From NCBI GenBank assembly GCA_019163335.1, contig JAFLKM010000034.1, forward strand, positions 1 through 40,592: 40,592 nucleotides of DNA. Direction: 5' to 3'. A program made the translations under genes and the position numbers. A model generated the notes under the pieces. It had not been told where the DNA came from. It ran no database searches and saw nothing but the letters and a program-made list of their open reading frames with translations. Every line of letters begins with the position of its first letter. The stretch's first letter is position 1. Shown here piece by piece: positions 5,353 to 31,227 of this stretch. This stretch comes from Desulfobulbaceae bacterium (GTDB taxonomy: Bacteria > Desulfobacterota > Desulfobulbia > Desulfobulbales > Desulfocapsaceae).

Positions 5353-7274
<1,922 letters not shown>

Positions 7275-7421
7275 TACTGAAGGTCCTTTTGAGAGGTTGT
7301 TGTTGTGATACTGAATTCATATGGGAATGATGAATGGTACGGGATGGATGGGGATAACGGCAACGCATAGATCCCTTTCCTCTGATACCCTTTAAGGATT
7401 CCCATGGTTTCTCACCGGGGG

Positions 7422-8072
7422 TTAAAGCAGGAAGCCCGGAACCAGGAGGGCGAGCACCGGGATCAGCGCAAAAATAAGTCCCACCATTAGGCCGCTGATG
7501 GCTGCTTTTCGGTCGAGGGTGCTGGTGTACTTGGGATGTTCAATCCCGAAAGATTGAAACAGGCTCCAGAAACCGTGACTGATATGCAGCCCCAGGGCCA
7601 GGACTCCGACAATGTAGAAAACGGCATACCCCGGCTGTTGCAGGGTGTTGCGGACAACATCGGCGATGGGGAGTTCACGGGTAATAAAGTGAAAATTGAG
7701 CAGATGCACGACCACAAAAACCAGGATGATCCCTCCGGTGTATATCATCGTCTTCGAACCAAAGGTTCTGCCGCCCCGACTGTTGACCACAGCGTAGCGC
7801 TGGGGCCGAGCCTTGCGGTTTTCCAGGAGCAGGAGCAGGGCGAGGACAATATGAAAGGAGAAAACCGTGAGCATCGTGAGTTCAAAGATGGGGATCAGAA
7901 ATCCCAGGCTGTGCAGATGGTGGGCATAGGAGAGAAAGACCTCCCTGCCCAGGAAAGAGGTACTGTTGCCGACGACGTGGATCAGGATAAACAGCCCGAG
8001 AAAAGAGCCGCTGGCTGCCATCAGCATTTTTTTGCCGATGGAAGACGAGAATGTTCGAAAAATAAAGCCCAT
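7422..8072 (-). CDS. sdhC: Succinate dehydrogenase/fumarate reductase cytochrome b subunit
   Basis: This is the 216-residue membrane anchor that carries heme b and exchanges electrons with menaquinone. Five hydrophobic helices are visible, with candidate heme-ligand histidines at ILIHVVGN, HHLHSLGF, FHIVLAL, VVHLLNFHF and LGLHISHGFW. This is the pattern of the single-subunit, diheme (b558-like) type. I chose the ATG at 8072 because AGGAGG lies just upstream, although the 12-base spacing is long. An upstream in-frame extension to 8177 would run through the hairpin region and is unlikely. First gene of sdhCAB. Futalosine-pathway genes elsewhere in the window fit menaquinone as partner. Confidence 0.92.
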   Translation of the reverse strand: MGFIFRTFSSSIGKKMLMAASGSFLGLFILIHVVGNSTSFLGREVFLSYAHHLHSLGFLIPIFELTMLTVFSFHIVLALLLLLENRKARPQRYAVVNSRGGRTFGSKTMIYTGGIILVFVVVHLLNFHFITRELPIADVVRNTLQQPGYAVFYIVGVLALGLHISHGFWSLFQSFGIEHPKYTSTLDRKAAISGLMVGLIFALIPVLALLVPGFLL

Positions 8073-8101
8073 GATGTAGTTATTCCTCCTTGCTATAGAT
8101 T

Positions 8102-8115
8102 CGGCAATATTGCCG
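8102..8115. promoter_or_regulatory. 14-bp perfect palindrome upstream of sdhC
   Basis: CGGCAATATTGCCG is fully self-complementary and lies about 30 bp upstream of the sdhC start codon, close to where RNA polymerase would bind or begin. It is a good operator candidate for control of the sdh/frd operon. The binding protein is unknown. Confidence 0.5.
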
Positions 8116-8183
8116 GATAAGTGCCTTACAGGCTGTTTTCTTGCAAAAAAAAAACAAGAAAATAATCGGTAGGGCACTTATCC
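8115..8183 (-). terminator. Nested inverted repeat between the DGC gene and sdhC
   Basis: The outer arms are 11 bp (GGATAAGTGCC at 8115-8125 with GGCACTTATCC at 8173-8183). The inner arms are 8 bp (TTTTCTTG at 8136-8143 with CAAGAAAA at 8155-8162), closed by an A10 run. It lies just past the stop of the upstream diguanylate cyclase, so a terminator or operator role is plausible. The T-run is in the loop and not after the stem, which argues against a classic terminator. Confidence 0.45.
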
Positions 8184-14373: not shown

Positions 14374-15711
14374 ATGAAACATGATTTCACCATACTCGCC
14401 ATTGATGATGATCCTGCCTTGTTACGTTCTCTTAAACGGGTTCTTTTTTCTGAGCCATACCGTTTGATCACAACCACTGATCCTAAAAAAGCATTTCTTC
14501 TGTTGGAACAAGAGAAGATCGGGCTGGTCTTACTTGATTTGAAGATCCCGGGGTATGACGGTATGACGATCCTGCACGATATCACGAGTCTTTATCCAGA
14601 CGTCACGATCATTATGTTGACAGGACATGGCGGTGTGCGGGAGGCCGTTGAAGCAATAAAAATAGGGGCGGCGGACTTCCTTGAAAAACCCTGTCCTCCC
14701 GAGGTGCTCTGCCAACGACTGGCTATTTACCATATCATTTGGCAGGAACAACAGGAGCGCAGAGAAAAAGGAAAGAAGATTTTCAGCTACCCTGGGTTTA
14801 TTGGAGAATCTTCGGTTATAGAGGAGTTGAAGTCTCTCATTGTACGGGTCGCAGCCTCTGATGCAACTGTCCTGATTCAGGGAGAATCCGGAACCGGCAA
14901 GGAGTTGGTGGCGCGAGCCGTACACTATCATAGTGTCAGGAAATCAGGGCCGTTTGTTCCGGTTGACTGTGCGGCTATCAGTGAAAATATCCTCGAAAGT
15001 GAGTTCTTTGGCCATGAAAGAGGGGCCTTTACCGGTGCGGACACAGCAACCAAAGGGTTGATTCGGTCCGCTGAAGGAGGGACCCTTTTTCTTGATGAAA
15101 TTGGCGAGCTTACAACACCCATGCAGGCAAAGCTGTTGCGTACTTTGCAAGAGCGTGAAGTACGGCCTGTGGGAAGTGCAAAAAATTATCCTGTCAATAT
15201 ACGGGTCCTTGCCGCCACCAATCGAAGCCTTGCCCAGGAAACAGCTCAGGGGTGCTTTCGTAGCGATCTCTTTTATCGACTCTCTGCCATCTCTCTTGAT
15301 TTGCCACCTCTCCGTGACCGTGGCGATGATATTTCTCTTCAGGCCAGGTATTTTATTGCCCGTTTTAGCGAAGGCAGATCGCTTGGCATCAGCCAGGAGG
15401 CCTTGGAACTGCTGCATCATTACAGTTGGCCTGGTAATGTTCGAGAACTGGAGAATGTTATACGCAGAGCAGTTGCCCTGACGGAACAGGAGATTATTGG
15501 TGTTGCTGATCTGCCCGCTACCATCGTCATGAACCGTGCCGCTGTTGACGATTTCAAGACGGACAAGGATTCACTCAATGCTTATGAACGGGTGGCCTTT
15601 GAAAAGGCCTTGAAAAAGACAGGCAACAATAAAAGACAGGCTGCCGCTCTTCTTGGTATCAGCGAAGCCACTCTCTATCGTAAACTGAAACAGTTTAATC
15701 TCTCATATTGA
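14374..15711 (+). CDS. NtrC-family sigma-54-dependent response regulator
   Basis: A 445-residue bacterial enhancer-binding protein. The receiver domain covers 1-120 with phosphoacceptor D55 (LLDLKIPGYDG) and K105. The AAA+ domain spans about 145-380, with Walker A GESGTGKE (170-177), the sigma-54-contacting GAFTGA loop (217-222) and Walker B LFLDEI (D241-E242). A Fis-type helix-turn-helix ends the protein (about 400-440, RQAAALLGISEATLYRKLK). All features needed to activate sigma-54 polymerase are intact. Its stop codon lies inside the first of two 17-bp dyads, and a near-perfect sigma-54 promoter follows, so it very probably controls the downstream operon. The cognate kinase is likely one of the two histidine kinases of that operon. 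Confidence 0.95.
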   Translation: MKHDFTILAIDDDPALLRSLKRVLFSEPYRLITTTDPKKAFLLLEQEKIGLVLLDLKIPGYDGMTILHDITSLYPDVTIIMLTGHGGVREAVEAIKIGAADFLEKPCPPEVLCQRLAIYHIIWQEQQERREKGKKIFSYPGFIGESSVIEELKSLIVRVAASDATVLIQGESGTGKELVARAVHYHSVRKSGPFVPVDCAAISENILESEFFGHERGAFTGADTATKGLIRSAEGGTLFLDEIGELTTPMQAKLLRTLQEREVRPVGSAKNYPVNIRVLAATNRSLAQETAQGCFRSDLFYRLSAISLDLPPLRDRGDDISLQARYFIARFSEGRSLGISQEALELLHHYSWPGNVRELENVIRRAVALTEQEIIGVADLPATIVMNRAAVDDFKTDKDSLNAYERVAFEKALKKTGNNKRQAAALLGISEATLYRKLKQFNLSY

Positions 15712-15749
15712 GAGACGGTTGTCTGTCCCGTGTCTCTCAATATGAGAGA
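15699..15749. promoter_or_regulatory. Paired 17-bp dyads: candidate enhancer (UAS) for the NtrC-type regulator
   Basis: Two copies of a dyad, TCTCTCATATTGAGAGA (15699-15715) and TCTCTCAATATGAGAGA (15733-15749). Each has perfect 7-bp arms around a 3-bp centre, and the two are inverted relative to each other. Centres are 34 bp apart, close to three helical turns, so two dimers could bind on one face. They lie about 185-215 bp upstream of the predicted transcription start, a normal distance for enhancer-binding proteins. A structure using the full 18-bp inverted arms could also form an RNA hairpin after the regulator gene, but no T-run follows. Confidence 0.8.
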
Positions 15750-16069
15750 CATCACGGGATGGTTTGTCATACTCCCCCTTTCTTTTTGTCGATTCTGATA
15801 ATCTGTGTTTATTTCACCCGTAATTATTCTTTATTGTTTCAAGTTGTTAAAGAAAACGTCTCAAGATATTCAGCTTTTTATTTGTTAAACTATGTTCAGG
15901 CACGGGCATTGCTTAATGTTACTGAGTACCAGGCCAGAACCATAGGGCCATACAGTTGGGGTGTGGATACCGGTATTCTGGTTTCTTGTTTCGTCCAGAC
16001 GGACTTTGAACCTGAAATAATGACAATAAACACACAACAAAATTCAATGAACAGAAAGGAGAATCGATT
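15712..16069. other. Regulatory intergenic region of the signalling operon
   Basis: 358 bp between the sigma-54 activator and the solute-binding protein. It contains the second dyad, an AT-rich stretch (about 15770-15895) with no clear IHF consensus, the sigma-54 promoter at 15898-15913 and a leader of about 145 nt. An open frame across it (15708-16073) overlaps all these elements and is not considered a gene. Confidence 0.7.
15898..15913 (+). promoter_or_regulatory. Sigma-54 (-24/-12) promoter
   Basis: AGGCACGGGCATTGCT matches the consensus TGGCACG-n4-TTGCW at all positions but the first, with correct GG-n10-GC spacing. Predicted start of transcription is near 15924, giving a leader of about 145 nt before the solute-binding protein gene. 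Ten fixed positions matched in a 40-kb window make a chance hit unlikely. Confidence 0.85.
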
Positions 16070-16951
16070 ATGAAGAGTAAATTTGCTGCGCTGCTTTTCT
16101 TTGTTTTTGCCAGTGCCTGCATGATAGGGCATGCGGCCGCACGTGATCTTGCAGATATCAAGAAGGCCGGGGTGTTGCGGCATCTTGGCGTCCCTTACGC
16201 CAATTTTGTTACCGGTGACGGTCAGGGCCTGGATGTGGAGGTTATGCAGCTTTTTGCCAAAGAAATTGGAGTAAAGTATCTGTATGTCAAGACCAGCTGG
16301 AAAGATGTCATTCCAGATCTGACCGGCAAACAGGTAGAATCTGATGGAGACAATGTCAAAATTACAGGCGAGGCCCCGATTCGAGGTGATGTTATTGCCA
16401 ACGGCTTGACCATCCTTCCCTGGCGGCAGAAGGTACTTGATTTTTCCGCCCCGACTTTCCCGACTCAGGTTTGGTTGGTCGCCGGACCCCAGTCGTCTAT
16501 AAAGCCCATCGTACCCAGCGGCTCAATTGATGGGGACATTGCGGCAATGAAGAGGTCTTTGGCGGGAAAGAAAATACTTGGCAAAAACAAAACCTGCCTG
16601 GATCCTAAACTCTACTTTCTTGAGGATGCAAACGCTGTTACCAGTCTATTTGAAGGTGATTTGAACGAACTGGCTCCTGCTGTTATCAGTGGAGTGGCGG
16701 ATGCAACCCTGCTAGATGTTCCCGATGCCCTGGTGGCCCTTGATAAGTGGCCTGATCAGATAAAAATATTGGGACCGATTTCAAGGCAGCAGGAGATGGC
16801 CGTCGCCTTTTCCAAGGATATGCCGGAATTACGCCAGGCTTTTGCTGTTTTTTTGAAAAAGATATGGCAGGATGGGACCTATACCGCCATGGTAACGAAA
16901 TATTATCCGGATGTTTTTGGCTACTATCCTGATTTTTTCACTCTCAAATAA
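16070..16951 (+). CDS. Periplasmic solute-binding protein (family 3-like), probable sensor input
   Basis: A 293-residue exported protein of the amino-acid-type (SBP_bac_3) fold. A signal peptide is clear (MKSKFAALLFFVF...HAAA, cleavage near residue 24). Family features include LRHLGVPYANFVTGDGQGLD, the DVEVMQLFAKEIGV segment and ANGLTILPWRQKVLDFSAP. The central part, where the ligand would bind, is less standard (PSGSIDGDIAAMKRSL). The ribosome binding site AAAGGAGA is strong. No ABC permease or ATPase is present. The next gene is a membrane histidine kinase, so this protein probably presents a ligand to a kinase and does not feed a transporter. The ligand is unknown. Confidence 0.85.
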   Translation: MKSKFAALLFFVFASACMIGHAAARDLADIKKAGVLRHLGVPYANFVTGDGQGLDVEVMQLFAKEIGVKYLYVKTSWKDVIPDLTGKQVESDGDNVKITGEAPIRGDVIANGLTILPWRQKVLDFSAPTFPTQVWLVAGPQSSIKPIVPSGSIDGDIAAMKRSLAGKKILGKNKTCLDPKLYFLEDANAVTSLFEGDLNELAPAVISGVADATLLDVPDALVALDKWPDQIKILGPISRQQEMAVAFSKDMPELRQAFAVFLKKIWQDGTYTAMVTKYYPDVFGYYPDFFTLK

Positions 16952-17015: not shown

Positions 17016-20000
17016 ATGAATCAACCTCAGCAGCATAATCGCAAGATCTTTGGCAACATTCCCTATGTGGCTGCCTTAGTGTGTTTTGCCGCGCTTATTT
17101 GTGGCTTGTTGACCGTGAACTATATCTCTCAACGTTCACTGCAGCGGGCAAATATTCAGCGTGTTCAGCAGAATCTTAAAGAACGTGCCCTGACGATCAG
17201 CTATTTTTTTAGCGAACGGCAAAAAGATGTTCGTGAGCTGGCAAGCTCTAAAGTGGTAACCGGTTTTTTTGCTAACCGGGCTTTGGGGATGTCCATGACT
17301 TATGGCCTGCAGGCAAGTCTGAACAATATTGCCAGATTGTTTGAACGGAGGGTGGATATCTCTCGCTTAGGAACGAAGGCGCTCTACTCTCGTCTGATTT
17401 TACTGGATAGTAATGGTCAGGCACTTTCAGGATGGCCGGCTCTTGATTTGCCTGAATATCAATCCATTCCAGAAGAAATCGATTTGAAAGGTGCTGAGGT
17501 TATCGTTGATAGCGATGCCGGCGGCAGTGTGTTTTTTACCTATCCTGTTCTTATCAATGATAAGTTGGAGGGATATATCCGGGTGTGGGTAAATTATAGG
17601 GATCTGGTTGATTCCTTGTTGGGTCAGCCGCACGGAGGGCTCTTTATTACCGACCACAAACGTCTGGTGTTTCAATCGCAGCAAGACCATTTGTTGCTAA
17701 AGTCTAATATCCTCAGTGAGCTTCTTCGGACAGATGCTAAATGGCCCCTTGAATTGAGTTCAAAAGCAATCTTTGAACCTGTGGTTGAACCAGGCCAAAA
17801 GGACGATACCCCCTATCTTCTCTTTTTCACGAATGTTCCCGGTTATGAGATTGATTTATTTTTGGCAGAACAAAGCAGTGTCATTACTAAATCGCATAGC
17901 TTTTATCTTTTCATGGTCATCCTTGCTATCCTGTCAATGGGAGGATTTCTGGTTGTTGTCGCTATGCTGCGTGCCAACTCAAAAAATCTTGTCCTTGAAA
18001 CATCCCTTGTCGAGGCACACAAAAGAGAAAAAGAGGTTGCCGAAAAAAAAGAAGAACTTGAACTTATTATTGAAGGTACCCGGCTTGGTACCTGGAGCTG
18101 GAATATTCCAAGCGGCAAGGTGTCCTTTAATGAACGTTGGACGCAAATGCTTGGTTATGAACTGGAAGAGATTGATGGCACCGTTGATACCTGGAAGGCT
18201 CTGATGCATCCCGATGACCTGGAGATGGTCATGGAGAAAGTCCAGGCACATCTTCTCCAGGGAGAAACTTCTATCTATATTGCTGAGCATAGACTCCGAC
18301 ATAAGTCAGGAAAATGGATCTGGATCTATGCCACAGGAAAAGTTCTCAAGCGTGATTCGGCCGGGAAACCTCTCCTGGCAATCGGGATTCACCTTGATGT
18401 TACGGCACGGAAGGAGGCACAACAAGAGCTTGCCAAGGCCAAAGATGAAGCGGATACCATTATTCGTAATTTTCTGGATACCCTGATCGTTGTTCAGAGA
18501 AATCTGCTTATTGCCAGGGTTAATCCGGCCACCTGTCAATTGCTCGGGTATGAAGAAAGCGAATTGATTGGCAAGCCTATCACCATGCTCTTTCATGATC
18601 CTTACGATCTGGTGAAAAGTGTTTTTTCTTTTTATGAAGAATCACAAAAGGATGTCTTTAATGGTAGAACTGAACTGCGCAATATTGAGTTGTCGTACCA
18701 GACCAAAGACGGCTCGCTGTTGCCCATGTCCGTGAATATCAGTCTGTTGAAGGATGAAGCAGGCCTGATAGTGGGGGTTATTGCCGGGGCTAAGGATATA
18801 TCGCACCTCAAGAAGGCCATGGACACCGTTGCCAGCCAGAAGGAATATATTGAACATCTCTTTGATGTCGTTCCGCAGGGGCTGATAACGCTTACCCAAT
18901 CCATGGAGATCATAGGGAGCAACAGGGCTTTCAACGAAACAATCCGAACCTGGTCGGCACTCTTTAATCTGACGGAACAGGGATTCAGATCAGAGTTACT
19001 GGGGAAACTCCAGACATCGCTGAAAGATAAGCCACAGTACGTATTTACGTTGTCGCATAACAATATCAGCGCATCCTTCAAATACCATGCGACATCTGTG
19101 TCAACGCTCGCAGGTATTGAATATGTTGTCGCGATCAGCGACATCACCAATGAACGAAAGGATGCGGCCGCAAGAAAACTCCTGGCCACGGTTATTGAAC
19201 AGACAGCCGACGCGGTTGTGCTCACCGATATCGATGGCACAATTCGTTATGTCAATCCCGCGACAATATCGCATACCGGCTACAGCGAAGATGAACTGAT
19301 TGGTACAAATCCGAGAATTTTCCAAAGCGGTCTGACACCTGTTGCTGTCTATAAAAATCTTTGGCGGACCATTTTAAGCGGTAGAATTTGGTCTGGCCAG
19401 ATTTCCAATCGCAAAAAAAATGGTTCTCTCATTGAAGAAAATATGACGATTTCACCGGTGCGCAATGAAGACGGTGATCTAACTCATTTTGTTGCCATTC
19501 GACGGGATATTACTGCCACGGTTCTCTTGCAACGACAATTGCTGCAGGCGCAAAAGTTGGAAGCCATTGGTCAACTGGCCGCGGGCATTGCCCATGAGAT
19601 AAACACGCCAATGCAGTATGTGCAGAACAACGTCTCTTTTTTTGAACGAGCCTTCGGTGATTTCTCTCTGTTGTTAACTGACTACCTGCAATTACAAGAT
19701 GCGCAGGGTGCACTGCTCACGGAAGAGGCGCGGAGCCACTTGAAAGATATTGATGTGGAATTTCTTATGGCCGAAATTCCAGATAGTATTGCAGAGATCC
19801 AGGAGGGGATCGCCCGGGTGGTAAAAATCATCTCAGCCATGAAAGTTTTCAGTCATCCCGGCAGCGGTGAGAAAATAGCAATCGACCTCAATCGCGCTCT
19901 GGAAAGCACGATCGTGGTAACAACGAATGAATGGAAGTATGTGGCCGAGATGGTCACTGACCTTGATCCGGACCTCCCCATGGTTCCCTGTCTGTCTGAT

Positions 20001-20366
20001 CAGCTGAACCAGGTGATGCTTAACCTGATTGTCAATAGCGCCAATGCCATCGAAGCGACCGGGGCATCCTGCCCTGATAATCCGGGCCGCATAAGCATCA
20101 GTACCCGTCAAGATAACGACTGGGTGGAGATCCGGGTGAGTGACACCGGCGGCGGGATCCCTGAAGCTCTTCGCAATAAGGTCTTCGAGCCTTTCTTTAC
20201 CACAAAAGAGGTGGGCAAGGGAACGGGCCAGGGATTGGCCATTTCTCATGACGTCGTCGTTATTAAACATGGCGGCACCATTGATTTTATAAGCGACCCG
20301 GGCAAGGGCACGACTTTTATTATCCGGTTGCCGCTCAATCCCGTAAACAACGAGGTGATACTATAG
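17016..20366 (+). CDS. Hybrid-free multi-PAS sensor histidine kinase (copy 1)
   Basis: A 1116-residue membrane kinase. TM1 (15-36) and TM2 (294-316) enclose a periplasmic sensor region of about 255 residues that I cannot assign to a named family, although it resembles Cache-type sensors. Cytoplasmic PAS domains follow at about 350-470, 480-600, 605-720 and 718-840. The phosphoacceptor is H860 ([13 protein letters not shown]). The ATPase domain (about 935-1110) has the N box [43 protein letters not shown] and a final glycine-rich motif. The ATG at 17016 is chosen because it starts a normal basic-then-hydrophobic N-terminus. The C-terminal 780 residues are duplicated in the next kinase. Confidence 0.92.
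18031..20366 (+). repeat. Direct repeat, copy 1 (kinase PAS-HisKA-ATPase module)
   Basis: About 2.3 kb that recurs at 22291-24623, offset by 4257 bp over most of its length (4260 bp before a 3-bp indel). It covers the end of the TM2 linker to the stop codon of the kinase. Most of it differs at scattered sites, but 18471-18802 is identical to 22728-23059. Confidence 0.95.
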
Positions 20367-20385
20367 AGTCTCTCGGAGGTTCTAT

Positions 20386-20613
20386 AAAAAGACCATTCTC
20401 TTTGTCGATGATGAACCAAATAAATTGAGAAGTCTGTGGCGTATGCTCTACCCTTTGTGCACTGACTTTCTCTTTTTTTTACAGGTTGTGCAAAGGAAAG
20501 ACATTCTGAAAAAACGGTGGTGTTGTTTGTGTGAACGCGCCATGCCGGAAGCCGACGATACAAGCCGGATTATTGGAGGGAACATTTTTATTCTCCATTT
20601 GCTTATAGAGTAG
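20386..20613 (+). pseudogene. Remnant of a REC response-regulator gene
   Basis: The first 85 bases or so (20386-20470) align closely with the start of the intact REC-HDOD gene at 24620, encoding KKTILFVDDEP... RMLYPLCTD. The start codon has been lost, because the equivalent of ATGAAC is replaced by a 20-bp foreign stretch after the kinase stop. The homology ends before the phosphoacceptor Asp. After that only a short stretch (LQVVQR) faintly recalls the original (LKIVQN), which would fit an internal deletion. The frame stays open to a TAG at 20611-20613, but the product would lack a start, an active site and an output domain. Confidence 0.75.
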
Positions 20614-20663
20614 AAGTCGGCAGTATTTTTATTATCAGTGAAGCCATCCCGCGAAAGGACATT

Positions 20664-23600
20664 ATGAAACGCACCTTCGGTCCACTCCTCACTACTTTTC
20701 TGGCGTACACAGCCTTGGGCTTATTAGGAATAGCCTTGGCTATTCCCCCGGGCTATGCAAGTCCCGTCTTCCCGGCAGCAGGGTTGGCCGTTGCCCTTGT
20801 GTTATATTTTGGTAACCGCATTCTCCCCGGTATATGGCTCGGTTCGCTAACAATAAACATTGTTATTGCCTGGCAAACCGGTGGTTTGGGTGCGATAAAC
20901 ATTGTCATAGCAGGGGTAGTGGCCGGCGGGGCGGTTCTTCAAGCCTTTGCAGCCCATTGGATGATACTGCGTTTGTTAGGCGACAAATGGCGTAGCCTTG
21001 AAACAGAGAAGGACATTATGCTGTTTCTTGTCGCAGGTGGTCCTTTGAGCTGTTTCATCTCCGCCACGATTGGTAACTGTACCCTGTATGTTGCAGGGGT
21101 CATCCCGACGAAGGAAGAGTTTTTTCATTCGTGGTGTAACTGGTGGACTGGCGACGTCCTCGGTGTTTTGATTTTTACCCCACTGATCCTGCTTTTTCTG
21201 TTTAGAAAAAAATCGCCATGGAAAGAACGAAGGCTAACCATCACTCTTCCTATGATGCTAACACTTTGTCTGGTTATCGTGGCCTTTCTCGGTACGTCAC
21301 ATCGGCAGAAAACGCAGCAAATAGGTCAAGTTGAAGAATGCGGCAGGAATATAGCTCAATTGCTTGAGCACCGTTTCGTTGCACATCAGGAGGCACTTTC
21401 CGCATTGAAACGATTGATTGAAGTAATGCCGGATATGACATTCCTTCAGTTTGAATACTTTACGGGGATTACCCTGCAGGACAATAAAGATATTTTTGCG
21501 CTGAGTTTCAATCCTTACGTCCTCGATTCGTCACGGAGTGCGTTTGAGCAAACCATGGCTAAGAGCGCGATGGATTCTTTCAGAATTCGAGAACGAAACA
21601 GTCAGAACCAGCTCGCGCCGGCTCCAGAAAAACCGTTTTATATCCCTGTTGGGCTGATCGCGCCCCTTGAAGGCAATCGACCAGCTATAGGTTTCAACAT
21701 TCACTCGGAACCCACCCGGCGAGATGCAATCGAAAAGGCGTTCCTCTCAAAATGTTCAACGGTAACAGCTCCAATCCAACTGGTGCAAGAGGCGAAAAAG
21801 CGCTTAGGAGTGCTAATTTTGACTCCCGCCTATCGGAGGGGGGAGTCACCAGCCAACGATGGCATGGAAAATCTGATTGGGTTTGCCGTAGGGGTATTCA
21901 AGATCGATGAAATGGTGCAGATCGCTATTCAAGACAAGGTTCCGGCAGGTATTGTCTTTCGTCTTACAGATCAATCGCCAGACGGTGTTCCGGTTGTTCT
22001 TTTTCAATCGGATGGAGGGCAGCAGAGACCAACAGAGCCGTATGTATGGCGAAAGCAACTATCCATGGTGGATCGGCAGTGGACCCTAGAGGTCTTCCCG
22101 ACTGAGGCCTATCTGCAACAACAACAATCGAGTTTCGGATGGGTTGTCGGTATTGCGGGCTTGCTTGTTGCGACATTGCTACAGATCCTGTTGCTGGCGA
22201 TGACAGGACGAACATCTGTTATTCAACAAAAAGTCAACGAGCAGACAGCGCAGCTTACGGAAGCATTCGCAGCAGCTCAGGAAAGAGAACAAGAGGTTGC
22301 CGAGAAAAAAGAAGAACTTGAACTTGTCATCGAAGGTACCCGGCTTGGTACCTGGAGCTGGAACATCCCAAGCGGTAAGGTTTCTTTTAATCAGCGTTGG
22401 GCGCAAATGCTTGGCTATGACCTGAAGGAACTTGATGGCACCGTTGATACTTGGAAAGCTCTGATCCATCCCGAAGACCTGGACATGGTCATCCATAAAG
22501 TCCAGTCACATATCCAGGGAGAAACCTCTCTCTATGTGACTGAGCACAGGCTGCGACATAAGTCAGGGAAATGGGTATGGGTCTATGATACAGGTAAGGT
22601 GCTCAAACGTGATCCGGAAGGAAAGCCTCTCCTGGCAATAGGGATTCACCTTGATATTACCGAACGGAAGGAAGCACAACAGGAACTTGCCAAGGCCAAA
22701 GAAGAAGCGGATACCATTATTCGTAAATTTCTGGATACCCTGATCGTTGTTCAGAGAAATCTGCTTATTGCCAGGGTTAATCCGGCCACCTGTCAATTGC
22801 TCGGGTATGAAGAAAGCGAATTGATTGGCAAGCCTATCACCATGCTCTTTCATGATCCTTACGATCTGGTGAAAAGTGTTTTTTCTTTTTATGAAGAATC
22901 ACAAAAGGATGTCTTTAATGGTAGAACTGAACTGCGCAATATTGAGTTGTCGTACCAGACCAAAGACGGCTCGCTGTTGCCCATGTCCGTGAATATCAGT
23001 CTGTTGAAGGATGAAGCAGGCCTGATAGTGGGGGTTATTGCCGGGGCTAAGGATATATCAAACCTCAAAATAGCCATGGATACCGTTGCCAGCCAGAAGG
23101 AGTATATTGAACACATCTTTGATATTGTTCCACAGGGGCTTTTAACTCTTACCCAATCCATGGAGATCGTGGAGAGCAACAAGGCTTTCAACGAAATAAT
23201 CCAAACCTGGTCAACACTTTTTAGTCTGCCGGAGCAGGACTTCAGCACAGAACTACTGGGAAAACTCCAGGAATTGCTGACGGATACGTCAAAAGCCGTT
23301 TTTACGTTATCGCACAACAATATCAGCGCTTCCTTTAAATACCATGCGACATCTGTTTCAGCGCGTGCAGGCATCAAATATGTTGTTGCGATCAGCGATA
23401 TTACCAATGAACGGAAGGATGCGGCCGCAAGAAAACTCCTTGCCACGGTTATTGAACAGACCCCCGACACGGTTGTGCTCACCGATATCGATGGCACAAT
23501 TCGTTATGTCAATCCCGCGACAATATCTCATACCGGCTACAGTGAAGGTGAATTGATTGGTAAAAATCCGAGAATTTTCCAAAGCGGCCTGACACCTGTT

Positions 23601-24623
23601 GCTGTCTACAACGACCTTTGGCAGACCATTCTAGACGGTAGGGTTTGGTCTGGCCATATATCAAATCGCAAAAAAGATGGTAGTATCATCGAAGAAAATA
23701 TGACGATCTCACCGGTACGTAATGAAGATGGTGACCTAACTCATTTTGTTGCCATTCGACGGGATATTACTGCCATGGTTCTCTTGCAACGACAATTGCT
23801 GCAGGCGCAGAAGTTGGAAGCCATTGGTCAACTGGCAGCGGGCATTGCCCATGAGATAAACACGCCAATGCAGTATGTGCGGAATAACGTCTCTTTTTTT
23901 GAACGTGCCTTTGCTGATTTCTCTCTGTTGTTAACCGACTACCTGCAATTACAAGATGCGCAGGGTGATCTCCTGACTGAAGAGGCGCGGAGCCACTTGA
24001 AAAGTATAAATCTGGAATTTCTTATGGCCGAAATTCCAGATAGTATTGAAGAGATCCAGGACGGGATCGCCCGGGTGGTAAAAATCATTTCGGCCATGAA
24101 AGAATTCAGTCACCCCGGCAGCGGTGAGAAAATAGCAATCGATCTCAATCGTGCTCTGGAAAGCACGATCGTGGTAACAACGAATGAGTGGAAGTATGTG
24201 GCCGAGATGGTCACCGACCTTGATCCGAATCTCCCCATGGTTCCCTGTCTGTCTGATCAACTGAATCAGGTGATGCTCAACCTGATAGTCAATGGCGCCA
24301 ATGCCATTGAAGAGACGGGGGCATCCTACCCTGATAATCCTGGCCGCATTAGCATCAGTACCCGTCAAGATAACGACTGGGTAGAGATCCGGGTGAGTGA
24401 CACCGGTGGCGGTATCCCTGAAGAGCTGCGTAATAAGATCTTCGAGCCTTTCTTTACCACAAAAGAGGTGGGCAAGGGAACCGGCCAGGGATTGGCCATT
24501 TCTCAAGACGTGGTCGTTGTTAAACATGGTGGCACCCTTGATTTTATTAGCGATCCGGGCAAGGGCACGACGTTTGTCATCCGATTACCGCTCAATCCCG
24601 TAAATAATGAGGTGATACTATGA
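20664..24623 (+). CDS. MASE1-CHASE multi-PAS sensor histidine kinase (copy 2)
   Basis: A 1319-residue membrane kinase. Residues 1-200 form a MASE1-type multi-helix domain ([38 protein letters not shown]). A periplasmic CHASE domain follows (about 225-480, containing [18 protein letters not shown] and [10 protein letters not shown]), then a last TM at about 491-513. The cytoplasmic part is the same module as in copy 1: PAS domains from about 558, 688, 812 and 924, H1063 in [13 protein letters not shown], and an ATPase domain ending at about 1313. AAAGGA lies just before the ATG. The stop overlaps the start of the REC-HDOD regulator (ATGA), marking that protein as its likely phosphoacceptor partner. 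Confidence 0.94.
22291..24623 (+). repeat. Direct repeat, copy 2 (kinase PAS-HisKA-ATPase module)
   Basis: Second copy of the 2.3-kb module starting at 18031. The 332-bp stretch 22728-23059, coding most of the second PAS domain, is identical to copy 1, while sequence on both sides differs at many synonymous and some non-synonymous sites. Confidence 0.95.
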
Positions 24624-25804
24624 ACAAAAAGACCATTCTCTTTGTTGATGATGAACCAAAAATCTTAAAAAGTTTGCGTCGCATGCTCTATCCTTTGTCC
24701 ACTGACTGGAACATGATTTATGTCGAGAGCGGTGCCCATGCCCTGGAGATTCTGGCCCAAACCCCGACAGCTGTGCTGGTTTCCGATATGCGTATGCCAT
24801 CCATGACTGGCCTTGAATTACTCAAAATTGTGCAGAATCGTTATCCGGAAATCGTCAGGGTGATGCTCACGGGTCAACCGGGCAAAGATATGTATTGTGA
24901 CGTGATGGCCATCTCCCATTATTTTTTATGGAAGCCGACCAGCTTTGAAAATTTTGAAGCCCTGTTTGGGAGAATAAAAGAGCTGGATTCCATCCTGAAA
25001 GATGAACACCTGGTCCGGCTTATCGGCGGGATTTCCTCTCTGCCGTCGCTGCCCGAACTTTTTACCCGGCTTACCGAACTTCTTGATAAACCGGAAGCAA
25101 ATAGTGCCCAGATTGCCACCGTGATAGGTGATGATCTGGCTATGACCGCCCAGATCCTCAAACTGGTGAATTCCGCTTTTTTCAATTTGTTAAAGCGGGT
25201 TGACACCTTGTCGGATGCGGTCGCGTACCTCGGATTGGACATGATTCGCAATCTTGTGCTGGTGCAGCATCTCTTTTCACAGTTTACCCCGGAAGAATAC
25301 CAGGAGTTTCAGTTGAACCAGTCATGGCAGCACAGCTTTTGTGTAGCGAACCTGTCAGAACAAATTGTTACTTCTCAATGTAAGATAGGCCAGGACCATA
25401 AGCACCATTCCTATCTAGCCGGTCTGCTTCTTGATATCGGGAAGCTGGTTTTGATACGACATCTTCCTGACACCTATCGAGAAATTCTTGTAAAGGTTGC
25501 GCAGGAAGACAGGGCTCAGGTTGAGACTGAGAGAGAATACCTGGGTACCGATCATGCGGCCATCGGTGCTTACCTGGCCTCTCTCTGGGGACTGCCCAGG
25601 GAAATATTTGAGTCCATCGCTCTTCATCATAAAGAATTACCGGTGAACCTGTCTGGCCCATCGTCTATTACTGAAGCGGTCTGGCATGCCACCCGGATCT
25701 GCCATGGAGATTTTTCACTTTCAGAAAGCAACAATGCAATTTATTCATTGGGAAAGCAATTTGTCTCCGGTATTGAATCACCCTCTTCCTTACCAAAAGA
25801 GTAA
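24620..25804 (+). CDS. REC-HDOD response regulator
   Basis: A 394-residue regulator. The receiver (1-120) has acidic residues in LFVDDEP, phosphoacceptor D56 (VSDMRMP) and lysine in FLWKP. An HDOD domain (about 140-335) follows, with LPSLPELFTRLTELL, the helix ILKLVNSAFFNLLKRV and LLLDIGKLVLIRHL. HDOD domains are HD-like but non-catalytic and are usually signalling scaffolds in c-di-GMP and stress networks. Cotranslated with kinase copy 2 (4-bp overlap). A remnant of a sister gene follows kinase copy 1. Confidence 0.92.
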   Translation: MNKKTILFVDDEPKILKSLRRMLYPLSTDWNMIYVESGAHALEILAQTPTAVLVSDMRMPSMTGLELLKIVQNRYPEIVRVMLTGQPGKDMYCDVMAISHYFLWKPTSFENFEALFGRIKELDSILKDEHLVRLIGGISSLPSLPELFTRLTELLDKPEANSAQIATVIGDDLAMTAQILKLVNSAFFNLLKRVDTLSDAVAYLGLDMIRNLVLVQHLFSQFTPEEYQEFQLNQSWQHSFCVANLSEQIVTSQCKIGQDHKHHSYLAGLLLDIGKLVLIRHLPDTYREILVKVAQEDRAQVETEREYLGTDHAAIGAYLASLWGLPREIFESIALHHKELPVNLSGPSSITEAVWHATRICHGDFSLSESNNAIYSLGKQFVSGIESPSSLPKE

Positions 25805-25953: not shown

Positions 25954-27108
25954 ATGAGTTACCAGATTCTGTTTATTGATGATGACGAAAAAATTCTGAA
26001 AAGTTTTCAAAGAACCCTGTCTTCACAATTCAAGGTTATGACGGCAGTGGGTCCGGAAGAAGCACTACGCATTATTGAGGAAAAGGGTCCGTTCCCGGTG
26101 GTAGTTTCCGATATGAAGATGCCCGGTATGAATGGAATTGAGATGTTCAGCCATGCCAGAAAAATCAGCCCGGATTCTATCCACATTCTCCTTACCGGGT
26201 TTGCTGATCTTCAAACCGCCATGGATGGTGTCAATAAGGGCGGGCTTTTTCGGTTTTTAACCAAGCCCTGCGATATTGATACCTTGAGCACAGCGCTTCA
26301 AGACGGACTGAGGCAGTACCAGCTCATCATGTCGGAAAAGGAACTGCTGGAACAGACCCTTCTTGGCACGGTCAAAGTGCTGGGGGAGATTCTTGCATTG
26401 GTCAATCCCTCAGCTCAGGGCGTTACCAATCGGTTGAAAAAATATTGCCGCCATATGATCAATGTGCTGGGACTGAAAGAACGATGGCTGTTTGATATGG
26501 CGATCATGCTCTCCCAACTGGGGTCCCTGACTATTCCTTCGGAAATTTTGAACAGATTTATTTCCGGCGCGACAATGTCAGATGAGGAAATGGCAATGAT
26601 CAAGCAGCTTCCCACTGTCACTGTAAAACTATTAATGCATATTCCTCGTCTGGAGGATGTTATAGAAATCATCTCCCGGCAGAATACTTCCTATTCGCAG
26701 TTTCCAGAATATTCCAATCCTGAGGAATATTCAAAACTCCATCTTGGCGCCCAGATGCTCCATGTGGCAATTGGACTGGATTGTCAACTCATGTCGGGAG
26801 TTACTCCTGCCAAGGTTCTCACTCATATGAGGGATGATATAAAAGAATTTAACCCGGCTCTGGTTGCTGCCATGGACAGTTATGACTTTGAATTACTGAA
26901 CATGGTGCGCATGAGAGTTGCTTGCAAAGATTTGAACACCAAGATGATCCTGGATGAGGATGTTTACAGCAAAGGCGGGGTGTTGTTGGCCCCCAATGGG
27001 CAGTGGGTAACGCTCGCCTTGATGATGGGCCTGCTGAATTATTCTCGAAGTATCGGAGTTAAGGAACCTTTTTACGTGCTTATTCCTCTGGTTGACTATG
27101 AAGTTTGA
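25954..27108 (+). CDS. Response regulator with degenerate HD-GYP output
   Basis: A 384-residue protein. The receiver (1-120) is intact, with D53 (VSDMKMPGMNG) and K104. The region 135-260 aligns in spacing with the HD-GYP domain of the next gene but every expected metal ligand is changed: PLHDLGKIGISDQIL becomes MLSQLGSLTIPSEIL (HD to SQ at 187-188), and the HHE...GYP motif becomes RQNTSYSQFPEY. A C-terminal part (260-384) of unknown function follows. It cannot be a standard c-di-GMP phosphodiesterase and is probably a binding or regulatory protein. AAGGAGG precedes the ATG. Confidence 0.85.
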   Translation: MSYQILFIDDDEKILKSFQRTLSSQFKVMTAVGPEEALRIIEEKGPFPVVVSDMKMPGMNGIEMFSHARKISPDSIHILLTGFADLQTAMDGVNKGGLFRFLTKPCDIDTLSTALQDGLRQYQLIMSEKELLEQTLLGTVKVLGEILALVNPSAQGVTNRLKKYCRHMINVLGLKERWLFDMAIMLSQLGSLTIPSEILNRFISGATMSDEEMAMIKQLPTVTVKLLMHIPRLEDVIEIISRQNTSYSQFPEYSNPEEYSKLHLGAQMLHVAIGLDCQLMSGVTPAKVLTHMRDDIKEFNPALVAAMDSYDFELLNMVRMRVACKDLNTKMILDEDVYSKGGVLLAPNGQWVTLALMMGLLNYSRSIGVKEPFYVLIPLVDYEV

Positions 27109-27272: not shown

Positions 27273-28436
27273 ATGGAGCACCTCAATACCGTTGATTTGA
27301 AGCAGCATATCCTTTTCGTGGAAGATGACCCAAAAATACATAAAGGGATTTCCCGATTGTTTCAGCAACATCAGGTTCCGTGGGGATACACCTTTGCTTC
27401 AGGGGTTGACGAGGCCTTGGCCATCATGGACGAGACAGACATGGACGGAGTGATCTCCGACATCAAGATGCCGGGCCGCGATGGCTTTGATTTGCTGGCC
27501 TATCTGCGCAGTAGTGCTAGATGGAATGATCTTCCGGTTGTGATGCTTACCGGACTGGATCATCCTGGACTTAAAAATAAGGCACTTGATTTGGGGGCGA
27601 CAGATCTGCTCAATAAACCGATCAATCCTGAAGAATTGATGGCCCGTATCCGCTCGGTACTTCATCTCAAAAAGTGTCTTGATACGATCAAGTCTCAGAA
27701 TTTATACCTTGAACAATTAGTCTGCCAACGAACTGAAGCGCTGGAAGCAACCAGGCTGGATATGATCTGGCGTCTGGCCAGGGCAGCGGAGTCCAGAAGT
27801 GAGGAAACTGGTAATCATGTTATCAGGGTTGGCTATTATTCAAAAATTCTGACAGAAGAGCTTGGAGTCCCTAAGGCTTTCAGCAAGATGGTTTTTCTCA
27901 CCAGCCCTTTGCATGATCTGGGTAAAATTGGCATTTCAGACCAGATTTTATTGAAAAAAGGTCCGTTGACTTCCGCTGAATGGGACATTATGAAAACCCA
28001 TTGTCGCATTGGGCAGGACTTACTTCTTCAGGATACTCATTTGCGGGATCCCATTCACAGCACCAACGGGACCTTGGTGCAGGACATTCTGGATCAAGAG
28101 AACAATCCTTTCCTGCAAATGGCGGCAGAAATTGCCGGATCCCATCATGAGCAGTGGCAGGGGAATGGCTACCCTTTCGGAATAACGGGTGAAGAAATAC
28201 CATTGGCTGCGAGAATCGTTTCGGTGTGTGATGTGTATGATGCCTTGAGAAGCAGGCGTAGTTATAAATCTATAATGAAGCATGACGACACCTTGACCAT
28301 TATGCGCAAAGAAAATGGTGTTCGCTTTGATCCGGTTGTGTTTGATGCTTTTGAACGGTGCTTGTCCACATTTGTCGATATACACCACCAATATAATGAC
28401 ACCCCAAGTGTCTCCAGGCTGACGAGCTTGAAGTAG
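27273..28436 (+). CDS. REC-HD-GYP response regulator (c-di-GMP phosphodiesterase)
   Basis: A 387-residue regulator. The receiver has D63 (ISDIKMPGRDG) and K115. A coiled linker (140-165) leads into the HD-GYP domain (about 165-370). Metal and active-site residues are all present: H182, H214-D215 (PLHDLGKIG), H243, H291-H292 and the GYP motif at 299-301 (HHEQWQGNGYP). It should hydrolyse c-di-GMP when phosphorylated. CGGAG lies 8 bases before the ATG. It is the only evident c-di-GMP catalytic enzyme in the island and can oppose the GGDEF protein at 8196-9515. Confidence 0.94.
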   Translation: MEHLNTVDLKQHILFVEDDPKIHKGISRLFQQHQVPWGYTFASGVDEALAIMDETDMDGVISDIKMPGRDGFDLLAYLRSSARWNDLPVVMLTGLDHPGLKNKALDLGATDLLNKPINPEELMARIRSVLHLKKCLDTIKSQNLYLEQLVCQRTEALEATRLDMIWRLARAAESRSEETGNHVIRVGYYSKILTEELGVPKAFSKMVFLTSPLHDLGKIGISDQILLKKGPLTSAEWDIMKTHCRIGQDLLLQDTHLRDPIHSTNGTLVQDILDQENNPFLQMAAEIAGSHHEQWQGNGYPFGITGEEIPLAARIVSVCDVYDALRSRRSYKSIMKHDDTLTIMRKENGVRFDPVVFDAFERCLSTFVDIHHQYNDTPSVSRLTSLK

Positions 28437-28638: not shown

Positions 28639-31227
28639 ATGAAAATTGAAGACGATGAAATGCTGCACGCTTTTATTGAAGATGCCCTTGAACATCTTGT
28701 TGATATTGAAACTGATCTTCTGGCGATAGAAAAGATAGGGGACAATATAGATGTGGATTTAGTAAACAAGGTTTTTGGAGTCGCCCACTCCATCACGGTT
28801 GCGGCCGGTTTTATGGGGCTTGCGGTGATCCGGAAGTTATCGCATGTCACAGAAAACATTCTGGGGTTGATCCGCAGCAGAAAAATAGTGCCAAATCCCG
28901 ATATCGTCAACGTCCTGATCCTGGCCACGGATAAGCTGGAGGCAATGCTTAATAATGTTCATACCAGCAATGATGAGGACATTACCGAACATCTCGTCTC
29001 TTTGAGTGCCATCGTGGAAAGCAGCAGGCTCCAGGCTGCAACACCCAGTTCGGTAATGGAACCCGTGGCCCCAAAAGCAGTTGTCGTTGAAAAAGGGCCA
29101 GCTCAGGTGCCTGGGCTCCCTAATCTTCCAGTACCTCAGCTTGCATCTGCATCTTTCTCGTCAATTCCAGAACCAATCGAGCCTCTTGCTGTAGAAATAT
29201 TAACAGCCACACCTTCGGTGGACCCTCAAACTTCTCTTGTCGCGGCGGATACCAGCCTCAGGGTTCAAGTCAGCCTTCTTGATTCGCTCATGACTTTGGC
29301 CTGCGAACTTGTTTTCAGTAGAAATCAACTTCTGCAGGCCATTGGCTTGAAGGACCTGTGTGCCGCCAAGGCCGTTGGGCAGCGGATTAACCTGATCACC
29401 TCTGAGTTGCAGGAAACCATCATATTGACCCGGATGCAGCCCCTTAGCAACGTTTTCACCAAGTTTCATCGGGTGGTACTGGATCTTGCCAGTCAGCTCA
29501 ACAAGACCATTGAGTTGACTATTATTGGGAGTGAAGTTGAATTGGATACGACCATTATTGAATCCATCAATGCACCCTTGACCCACCTGGTTTGTAACTT
29601 ACTGGATTATGGAGTGGAAATGCCTGCCGACAGGAAATGCGCAGGAAAATCTGAAAAAGGAAATATTATCCTCAAGGCCTACCATGAGGCAGGTCAGGTT
29701 GTTATTCAAATTGACGACGACGGCAAAGGGATTGACGGCGAGGCGCTGGTAGCATCTGCCATCAACAAGGGGCTTATTTCGGTTGAACAGGCCCAGCTTA
29801 TGTCTGACGAAGAGAAGCTTAAACTCATCTTTCTCCCAGGTTTTTCTTTAGCCGAGAAGGTCGCCGATGTTTCTGGACGTGATGTTGGCATGGACGTGGT
29901 GAAAACTAATTTTGATAAACTTGGAGGGCAGGTGGAAATTTTCTCTGAGATCGGACGCGGAACCGCTATCTCTATCAAGTTTCCCCTGACTCTCGCGGCT
30001 ATTGCCTGTCAGATCATCACCACCAGTGGCCAACGATATGCTATTCCTCAAGTCAATCTGGAAGAGCTTCTGCGTATCCCCTCGGATCAGATTAAAAAAC
30101 GGGTGGAAAAAATTGGTAACGTTGAAGTAGTTTCCCTGCGTGGCAATATTTTGCCCTTGATCAGGTTGTCTGATGTCATAGGTGTAGAACGTACTTACTG
30201 GGATTCGAAGGAGGTGGAGCGAAAAGTTGAAAGAAGAGTCAACATCGCCGACAGGCGGGGCAAACAATCGTTTCCGCTTCTGAGCTGTGGCGAGGAACCG
30301 GGAAGTGAAAATAATGTCAGCAATGACAACCGTATTTGCATGGAACGCCGCGATAACGTTACACGTGCCCTGAATATTGTGGTGGTTTCTGCCAACTCCA
30401 TGAAATATGGCCTTATTGTGGACCGCTTTCTCGATTCAGAGGAGATCATTATCAAACCTCTGAGCAGATATCTTCAGCAATGCAAAGGCTATGCTGGCGC
30501 CACGATCATGGGTGATGGCCGCATCGCCCTGATGCTGGATGTCCATAATCTGGCACAGATGGCCCGTATTGCCGATATTGATGGTTTCGCGGCTGCCAAT
30601 GAGGAAGCCCTGGCTGCCGCAAAACTCTTGCAGACCCCAAAAAATACTCAGACCTTCCTTGTCTTCCACAGCTCGGAGCATGAGCGGTTTGCCGTTTATC
30701 TGGGTCAGGTTGAACGCATTGAAAAGATCAGCCGCTTAAAAATTGAAAATCTGGGGGGGAAACGGGTTCTACAGTACGGTGGAGGGATACTCGCCCTCGT
30801 TACGATCGATGACGTTTCTAAGGCACATCCCCTGGCTGACCAGGACGAGTTACTGGTGTTAGTTTTTCAAATTTCCTCGCAGGCAATTGGTCTTTTGGCG
30901 AATGGCCCCATTGATGTTGTTGAGATTGATTCTGAGATTAATAGAACGATGATGAAGCAACCTGGCATTATCGGTTCCTTGATCATCGATGGTCATTCCA
31001 CCCTGCTTGTGGACATCGTTGAGATAGCACAGGCTATCTTTCCTGACAGGTTTCCCGGAAATGCGGCCTTTGAGGGTGACAAGAGTCTCGAGATTGCACC
31101 CACTATTCTTATGGGGGAGGATTCGGGCTTTTCCCACAATCATGTCAAAAACGACATGGCGGAATCTGGACACAAAGGTATAGAGACAGCGGATGAGCCC
31201 ATTGGGTCTGCTGCAGCACCATGCTGA
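28639..31227 (+). CDS. CheA-like histidine kinase with Hpt and two CheW-type domains
   Basis: An 862-residue cytosolic protein in CheA order. The N-terminal Hpt domain (1-105) has phosphoacceptor H50 in GVAHSITVAAGFMG, with the usual HSIKG reading HSITV. A Pro/Ala-rich linker (130-195) precedes a dimerisation region (about 205-280) and an ATPase domain (about 285-445, HLVCNLLDYGVE, IDDDGKGID, GRDVGMDVVK). Two CheW-like domains follow, at about 450-630, carrying a charged insertion (VERRVNIADRRGKQS), and at about 665-800. There is no receiver. No MCP, CheY, CheR or CheB gene is near. It probably acts as a phosphorelay hub for the regulators upstream. Confidence 0.88.
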   Translation: MKIEDDEMLHAFIEDALEHLVDIETDLLAIEKIGDNIDVDLVNKVFGVAHSITVAAGFMGLAVIRKLSHVTENILGLIRSRKIVPNPDIVNVLILATDKLEAMLNNVHTSNDEDITEHLVSLSAIVESSRLQAATPSSVMEPVAPKAVVVEKGPAQVPGLPNLPVPQLASASFSSIPEPIEPLAVEILTATPSVDPQTSLVAADTSLRVQVSLLDSLMTLACELVFSRNQLLQAIGLKDLCAAKAVGQRINLITSELQETIILTRMQPLSNVFTKFHRVVLDLASQLNKTIELTIIGSEVELDTTIIESINAPLTHLVCNLLDYGVEMPADRKCAGKSEKGNIILKAYHEAGQVVIQIDDDGKGIDGEALVASAINKGLISVEQAQLMSDEEKLKLIFLPGFSLAEKVADVSGRDVGMDVVKTNFDKLGGQVEIFSEIGRGTAISIKFPLTLAAIACQIITTSGQRYAIPQVNLEELLRIPSDQIKKRVEKIGNVEVVSLRGNILPLIRLSDVIGVERTYWDSKEVERKVERRVNIADRRGKQSFPLLSCGEEPGSENNVSNDNRICMERRDNVTRALNIVVVSANSMKYGLIVDRFLDSEEIIIKPLSRYLQQCKGYAGATIMGDGRIALMLDVHNLAQMARIADIDGFAAANEEALAAAKLLQTPKNTQTFLVFHSSEHERFAVYLGQVERIEKISRLKIENLGGKRVLQYGGGILALVTIDDVSKAHPLADQDELLVLVFQISSQAIGLLANGPIDVVEIDSEINRTMMKQPGIIGSLIIDGHSTLLVDIVEIAQAIFPDRFPGNAAFEGDKSLEIAPTILMGEDSGFSHNHVKNDMAESGHKGIETADEPIGSAAAPC

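Follow-up and report, generated by a model that had tools for sequence, protein, structure and literature searches.

The window analysed here, a stretch of 40,592 nucleotides from the draft genome of a Desulfobulbaceae bacterium (G000; 3.2 Mb in 103 contigs), carries two tandem histidine kinase genes, K1 and K2, in which nearly the same signalling module stands behind two unrelated sensor heads. We think it probable that gene conversion and unequal exchange keep such co-operonic kinases on one output, and that here the module of K2 was replaced by that of K1. The genes and segments concerned are listed below, "alpha" and "beta" being the two branches of the module tree described further on.

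17016..20366, plus strand: K1 histidine kinase, with double-Cache (dCache) head, PAS repeats, HisKA and HATPase
17016..18020, plus strand: K1 sensor head, a periplasmic double-Cache with two transmembrane (TM) helices (AlphaFold2, Foldseek, weak Pfam dCache_1)
18021..20363, plus strand: shared module copy 1, alpha type (PAS repeats, HisKA, HATPase)
18471..18802, plus strand: 332-bp tract identical to 22728-23059
20386..20467, plus strand: remnant (82 bp) of an HDOD response-regulator gene without start, 85% identical to 24626-24707
20627..20658, plus strand: K2 leader, 32 bp 5' of the K2 start, 81% identical to the corresponding bases in the related genome G059
20664..24623, plus strand: K2 histidine kinase, with MASE1-CHASE head and the same module as K1
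20664..22280, plus strand: K2 sensor head, MASE1, CHASE and coiled coil, an old gene segment (Pfam; heads of relatives)
22281..24620, plus strand: shared module copy 2, alpha type (beta type in the K2 genes of the other three genomes)
24620..25804, plus strand: REC-HDOD response regulator, overlapping the K2 stop by 4 bp (Pfam HDOD 6.5e-57, Response_reg 2.2e-14)

The duplicated segment

A plus-strand self-comparison (blastn, E 1e-5) revealed one internal repeat in the whole window, 18022-20467 versus 22282-24707. It is about 2.45 kb long and 89.6% identical at the DNA level over 2446 columns (234 mismatches, 3 gap openings), with a spacing of 4.26 kb between the copies. The repeat begins before the first PAS domain, passes the kinase stop codon and enters the next gene, so that K1 is followed by a startless stub of an HDOD gene. 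The duplicated unit comprises the module and the beginning of the HDOD regulator gene, and a head-to-tail repeat that includes part of the neighbouring gene is what a tandem duplication leaves behind. A preliminary description of this DNA had reported a 2.3-kb module repeated 4.26 kb apart behind differing N-termini; this is borne out, with the repeat longer than stated and reaching into the following gene.

The two modules are 89% identical as proteins over about 780 residues, and the next best match in the genome reaches 59% over 283 residues; the modules are thus closer to each other than to kinases elsewhere in the genome, the point on which the preliminary description had staked its reading. 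Within the HisKA-HATPase core, K1 and K2 differ at 19 of 280 positions, 9 of these among the first 110. For the whole module the nonsynonymous distance (dN) is 0.055 and the synonymous distance (dS) 0.28, which indicates that both copies are under constraint. HATPase_c is matched by Pfam at 3.6e-25 and 1.3e-25, HisKA below its curated cut-off (20.1 and 24.7 versus 26.9 bits); both proteins possess the H-box and the HATPase domain that characterise HisKA-type sensor histidine kinases. As for the four PAS domains per module that had been proposed, the first and last are clear in the Pfam table, the second is weak (K1 residues 518-624), and the third is not separately shown.

Within the repeat lies a tract of 332 consecutive identical bases (18471-18802 and 22728-23059), the next longest run among the 2106 ungapped positions being 58. 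Not one of 20000 random placements of 192 mismatches produced a run of 332. Synonymous distance is about 0.01 in the tract, compared with 0.45 before and 0.33 after it. The tract shows a later exchange, that is, a conversion, between the K1 and K2 copies.

The sensor heads

A forced alignment gives about 20% identity between the K1 and K2 heads, and their difference in kind, as originally described, was confirmed. The K2 head is matched by MASE1 (4.9e-24, 85.4 bits versus a cut-off of 29.8) and CHASE (8.3e-37, 127.2 bits versus 25). For the K1 head Pfam gives only a sub-threshold dCache_1 match (25.6 bits versus a cut-off of 45), and its sequence profile found no relative in the PDB at E up to 1. 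Seven heads of the K1 type were used for an AlphaFold2 model (pLDDT 72, pTM 0.64), which matches the dCache domains of Tlp3, DctB and PctA (Foldseek, E 4e-8 to 1e-6), and the head is accordingly modelled as a double-Cache fold between two TM helices. The K1 start at 17016 is more likely than one at 16911, judged from where the K1 proteins of relatives begin.

A family-3 solute-binding protein (SBP) is encoded directly 5' of the K1-type gene in five of the six other K1 loci examined (genomes G058, G059, G098, G110 and G165), as it is in the window; at the sixth, in G159, only 190 bp of contig are left beyond the start of K1. The SBP is probably a co-receptor that delivers a ligand to the K1 head. 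A more distant pair of SBP and K1 head occurs in a metagenome-assembled genome (MAG) of Planctomycetota (locus L069), with 56% identity for the SBP and 35% for the head.

K2 in related genomes and the two types of module

Heads of the K2 type were found in three related genomes, G098 (66% identical), G059 (67%) and G060 (72%), and the complete K2 of G059 is 60% identical over 1310 residues. Two of these genomes, G059 and G060, also appear as G157 and G163 in one survey (same contig numbers, matching coordinates). Judged by these relatives, K2 is an old kinase gene that would formerly have carried a module of the beta type.

In the module tree, an alpha branch (support 80/80) holds the K1 modules of G098 and G058 and both window kinases, and a beta branch (87/92) holds K2 of G098, G059 and G060, K1 of G059, G159 and G165, and two HAMP-headed kinases. 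The K2 module of the window sits with K1 of its own genome (100/100) and then with K1 of G058 (96/95). Approximately unbiased (AU) tests rejected a clade of all four K2 modules (p 2.2e-66), and likewise a grouping of the K1 modules of G000, G058 and G098 that leaves out K2 of G000 (p 1.6e-5). At eight diagnostic sites K1 and K2 each have six alpha and two beta letters, and in each 40-residue stretch their identities to K1 of G058 lie within 10 percentage points of each other. Because K2 follows K1 both along the module and at the diagnostic sites, no retained beta segment is apparent in it. Elsewhere in the window there is no remnant of an older beta-type K2, the sole extra match lying in a gene for a CheA-like protein (23% identity). 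The spacer between K1 and K2 contains no remnant of RRHD2, one of two REC-HD regulator genes further downstream, at E up to 1; its matches at that level are to the starts of HDOD and other REC genes, to the K2 leader, and to two 17-bp stretches (E 0.3).

Probable exchange of cores in other genomes

Separate phylogenies of the N-terminal and catalytic halves had been proposed as a check, and these disagree: K1 and K2 cores group by genome in all four genomes that have both heads (G000, G059, G098 and G110) and the heads do not, the trees of K2 heads being weak. The core group of G059 includes a third, HAMP-headed kinase, and the first three genomes were recovered in a second core tree.

Separate trees of the second to fourth PAS domains (PAS2-4) and of the HisKA-HATPase core place this conflict inside the module. 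The PAS2-4 tree unites K2 of G059, G060 and G098 (91/92) and makes the HAMP kinases of G059 and G060 sisters (100/99); with p values to be taken as guides, it rejects a pair of K1 and K2 of G098 (p 1.9e-16) and the trio of G059 kinases (p 0.003). The core tree, in contrast, joins K1 and K2 of G098 (98/95) as well as the G059 trio (95/91), and rejects the pairing of the orthologous HAMP kinases (p 0.004, again a guide). Synonymous distances agree with this most clearly in G059, where K1 and K2 differ by 0.31 in the core and have reached saturation (3.05) in PAS2-4; the control, a pair of HAMP-headed orthologues from G059 and G060, gives 0.71 and 0.68 for core and PAS. Cores that follow the genome next to PAS domains that follow orthology, in G059 and G098, together with this dS contrast and the long identical tract of the window, are the pattern of gene conversion. 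The HAMP-headed kinases carry the same beta core (locus L193, 4804-7830, in G059; L140, 290-2911, in G060), and in G059 this kinase seems to have taken part in core exchange with K1 and K2.

Similar cases were found at greater distance. G110 has the order SBP - K1 - K2 - REC-SpoIIE (L192, 3748-11054, minus strand), and its K1 and K2 cores are 86% identical in DNA over 882 bp, yet only about 40% identical to the window core. A gammaproteobacterial MAG (L070, 153-14472) has four tandem kinases with cores 86-91% identical (codon-aligned) and one HDOD regulator after them; their heads are MASE3 with a weak dCache, a weak dCache, NIT, and MHYT-GAF. Locus L091 contains a pair of kinases, one with a REC head, with cores 86% identical.

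Gene order and neighbouring genes

The kinases belong to a plus-strand run of signalling genes: a sigma-54-dependent response regulator, a reading frame of 121 residues, the SBP, K1, K2, REC-HDOD, RRHD1, RRHD2 and a CheA-like protein. The members not listed above are:

14374..15711, plus strand: sigma-54-dependent response regulator, first gene of the conserved cluster (Pfam; same position in G058, G059, G098)
16070..16951, plus strand: SBP, family-3 solute-binding protein, immediately 5' of K1 (Pfam SBP_bac_3 2.3e-19)
25954..27108, plus strand: RRHD1, REC and degenerate HD-GYP regulator, LSQLGSL at the HD motif (Pfam, motifs)
27273..28436, plus strand: RRHD2, REC and HD-GYP regulator with HDLGK, HHEQW and GYP motifs (Pfam, motifs)
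28639-31227, plus strand: CheA-like protein with Hpt, dimerisation and ATPase domains and several CheW matches (Pfam)

In G098 and G059 the order is sigma-54 regulator, SBP, K1, HDOD, RRHD1, RRHD2 (then two extra genes in G059) and K2. There K2 is at the far end of the operon and K1 is in tight contact with HDOD, whereas in the window K2 stands between K1 and HDOD and it is K2 that has this contact. The 32 bp upstream of the K2 start are conserved with G059 (E 0.007, weak alone and co-linear with the K2 start). On the G060 contig K2 alone is visible. G165, represented by one contig, has SBP - K1 - REC-HD; the region examined lacks K2, and a K2 head was not found at E 1e-60. A whole-K2 search of G058 (locus L056) gave no head match among the matches listed. 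In that locus a REC-REC-PAS-HisKA-HATPase protein (6124-8133), with a core 62% identical to that of the local K1, lies between K1 and HDOD and so occupies the place that K2 has in the window.

Among 257 genomes of the order, that of the window included, a K2-type head was found in 7 at E <= 1e-60, two of these just 33% identical, and a K1-type head in 5 at E <= 1e-35 (11 by profile at E <= 1e-40); clear forms of both occur in G000, G059/G157, G098 and G110. In the 16 other genomes of the window's genus the best match to the K2 head is 32% identical and the sole match to the K1 head 27%. Horizontal transfer of the cluster into the genus was considered, and the head trees do not resolve well enough to identify a donor. 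Plasmid origin was rejected, as the four plasmid records matched cover at most 5% of the query each.

RRHD1 has lost the HD motif (LSQLGSL, compared with LHDLGK in RRHD2), and the two genes are kept together in G059 and G098. None of the reading frames in the stretches read of G059 and G098 matched the CheA-like protein. The 121-residue reading frame (15708-16073) overlaps both neighbours by 4 bp, has a G+C content of 39% compared with 48% in the flanking genes, and gave no Pfam or NCBIfam match. A scan of 20250-20720 for promoters and terminators found nothing resembling a terminator; the three sites resembling promoters all lie on the minus strand.

The likely output partner

An HDOD regulator lies within 150 bp 3' of such a kinase in 56 of 78 database loci, and two of the other 22 loci end just after the kinase; from this order the HDOD protein is the likely partner. 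In the window a single intact HDOD gene accompanies both kinases. We infer that K1 and K2 phosphorylate the same regulator, so that two inputs would drive one output as the preliminary description had suggested, a view that fits the single intact HDOD gene and the recurrence in relatives. The output may also touch cyclic di-GMP by way of the HD-GYP protein RRHD2, which from knowledge of the family we take to be a probable phosphodiesterase of this messenger.

Origin of the arrangement

Of the possible histories, we favour one in which K1 and K2 would be two input arms of a single two-component cluster, K1 sensing by its periplasmic double-Cache domain, probably together with the SBP, and K2 by MASE1-CHASE. 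Through nearly the same catalytic core, both would feed, in the first place, the REC-HDOD regulator coupled to K2, and perhaps the two REC-HD regulators downstream as well. K2 is an old kinase, found in relatives at the end of the operon and equipped there with a beta module of its own. In the lineage of the window an unequal exchange may have joined the K2 head to a copy of the alpha module of K1 and the start of the HDOD gene, and a deletion would have removed most of the first HDOD gene and what came after it, leaving K1 - HDOD stub - K2 - HDOD; later conversion would have made a stretch of 332 bp identical. The K1 and K2 of relatives appear to exchange their HisKA-HATPase core in place by gene conversion, such that cores evolve in concert while heads diverge, possibly under selection for a common wiring.

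The preliminary description had envisaged duplication followed by a swap of the sensory part. The first half of this stands, as a duplicated segment did put one module behind two heads; a swap of sensors onto a fresh copy is not supported in that form, since K2 has its own PAS-kinase module in G059, G060 and G098, it is in the module and not the sensor that K2 of the window differs, and a clade of all K2 modules is rejected. Put in full, this view holds that K1 was duplicated in tandem and a MASE1-CHASE head then captured from elsewhere, with no existing K2 module replaced. The HDOD stub and the 2.45-kb repeat do show that a segment was duplicated, K2 lies between K1 and HDOD, an order not shared by G098 and G059, and no beta-type remnant of an older K2 is seen in the window, all of which such a capture would accommodate. 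However, the K2 head is orthologous to those of K2 genes that already have a PAS-kinase module in three relatives, and capture of a head leaves both the core-limited homogenisation in G059 and G098 and the 332-bp tract unexplained. We regard it as unlikely, if still a serious competitor. What separates it from replacement of the K2 module is chiefly whether the K2 head came alone or already joined to a module, a point that the window by itself does not decide.

That no exchange took place at all, and that purifying selection has simply preserved a conserved core since an old duplication, might be suspected because cores were conserved as much as or more than the PAS region in the comparisons made. 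It is extremely unlikely that this accounts for the data, as the synonymous sites agree with exchange (the G059 contrast between core and PAS, against nearly equal values in orthologues), the 332-bp tract is almost without synonymous change between flanks with dS of 0.33-0.45, and the alternative groupings are rejected by AU tests. Merging of reads from two similar copies, which could have made the identical tract or even fused K2, deserves thought in a draft of 103 contigs with a tract longer than common short reads. This too is very unlikely, as about 10% of the sites in the repeat outside the tract differ, neither reading frame is interrupted, dN of 0.055 with dS of 0.28 fits two real, constrained genes, and like patterns occur in the independent assemblies of G059, G110 and L070.

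A further proposal, which concerns function, is that K1 pairs with K2 in mixed dimers, so that a single kinase would integrate both signals. Cores that differ at so few positions would permit pairing, and neighbouring genes on one strand are likely to be co-expressed; PAS and head regions also shape dimer pairing, however, and the heads are unrelated, so that we consider mixed dimers possible but doubtful.

Several observations count against replacement of the K2 module by exchange, or lessen the force of the evidence for it. The relatives' genomes are mostly draft assemblies, in which long repeats can merge wrongly, and the number of independent genomes is small; the length of the identical tract, beyond that of usual short reads, leaves room for an assembly error. 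Support for the alpha branch is just 80/80, the K2-head trees are weakly resolved, and some 40-residue stretches of K2 (and of K1) are closer to a beta module than to K1 of G058. The groups compared in the PAS and core AU tests were named after earlier trees were known, whence the reading of their p values as guides. In G098 the contrast is modest (K1/K2 dS 1.08 in the core versus 1.84 in PAS), and the K1/K2 pair has support of 91/77 in a wider core tree. K1 of G110 is broken into frames of 308, 184 and 346 residues, and G110 lacks PAS2-4 and with it an internal control. The case for a shared regulator is built on gene order and near-identical cores. Finally, 24 of the 78 database loci hold at least two such kinases, and in the 46 pairs compared by amino acid identity (three of the 24 loci are without a pair of 150 aligned residues) a core pair of at least 80% identity was found in just two loci, L070 and L091; homogenisation therefore recurs but is not general.

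A broader proposal is that gene conversion limited to the core has, in several lineages independently, made neighbouring sensor kinases of one operon evolve together in their catalytic cores, so that a group of sensors can stay on one output or be transferred jointly to another; here we consider the evidence evenly balanced. If the proposal is true, G110 would be a case of a set that moved, with the same two heads and SBP, a different core, and a REC-SpoIIE phosphatase in place of REC-HDOD, and multi-sensor arrays such as the four-kinase locus L070 would have been built likewise.

Comparison with known systems

In the account usually given of events after duplication, specificity residues diverge and pathways become insulated (PMC8175716). 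Upstream domains are reported to vary more than C-terminal parts (PMC5108060), and duplication of one operon gene can give a pathway with more than one kinase (PMC8895600). The window seems to reverse the usual account, in that the sensors have diverged completely and the cores stay alike. If this is general, like cores in neighbouring kinases would predict shared outputs from sequence and help to explain the persistence of many-to-one signalling; such genes also offer natural instances in which sensor and core are fused at a defined coiled-coil junction.

A REC-HDOD gene beside PAS kinases is in itself a familiar order, as the 56 database loci show, and the window departs from these in having two kinases before one intact HDOD gene and the remnant of a second. 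Its likeness to the GacS network, a many-to-one or multikinase system in which duplicated hybrid kinases converge on one output, lies in several kinases with different inputs and a single output (PMC8175716). Kinases that share an ancestor with GacS possibly remain in its network; those hybrid kinases are related by duplication and recruitment of receivers (PMC8175716), while in the window adjacent kinases of one cluster appear to exchange the catalytic core. Histidine kinases described as domain-shuffled likewise combine the same transmitter with different input domains, and a survey calls such shuffling rare, suspecting loss of a domain followed by gain rather than direct shuffling (PMC4603909). 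Unlike the cases of that survey, replacement by a neighbour can be traced in the window through the stub and the identical tract.

Among the matches listed from the open-access literature, judged by title and the start of the abstract and with subscription papers outside this scope, there is no report of gene conversion between histidine kinase cores. A close parallel is the concerted evolution of repeated bacterial genes such as rRNA operons, where gene conversion also keeps paralogues alike within a genome (PMC6002687, PMC8022953); the window differs in that only part of each protein is homogenised and the rest is unrelated. Many-to-one networks and domain shuffling were already known, and our results suggest the exchange of cores between neighbouring kinases as a way by which cells might keep several sensors wired to one output.

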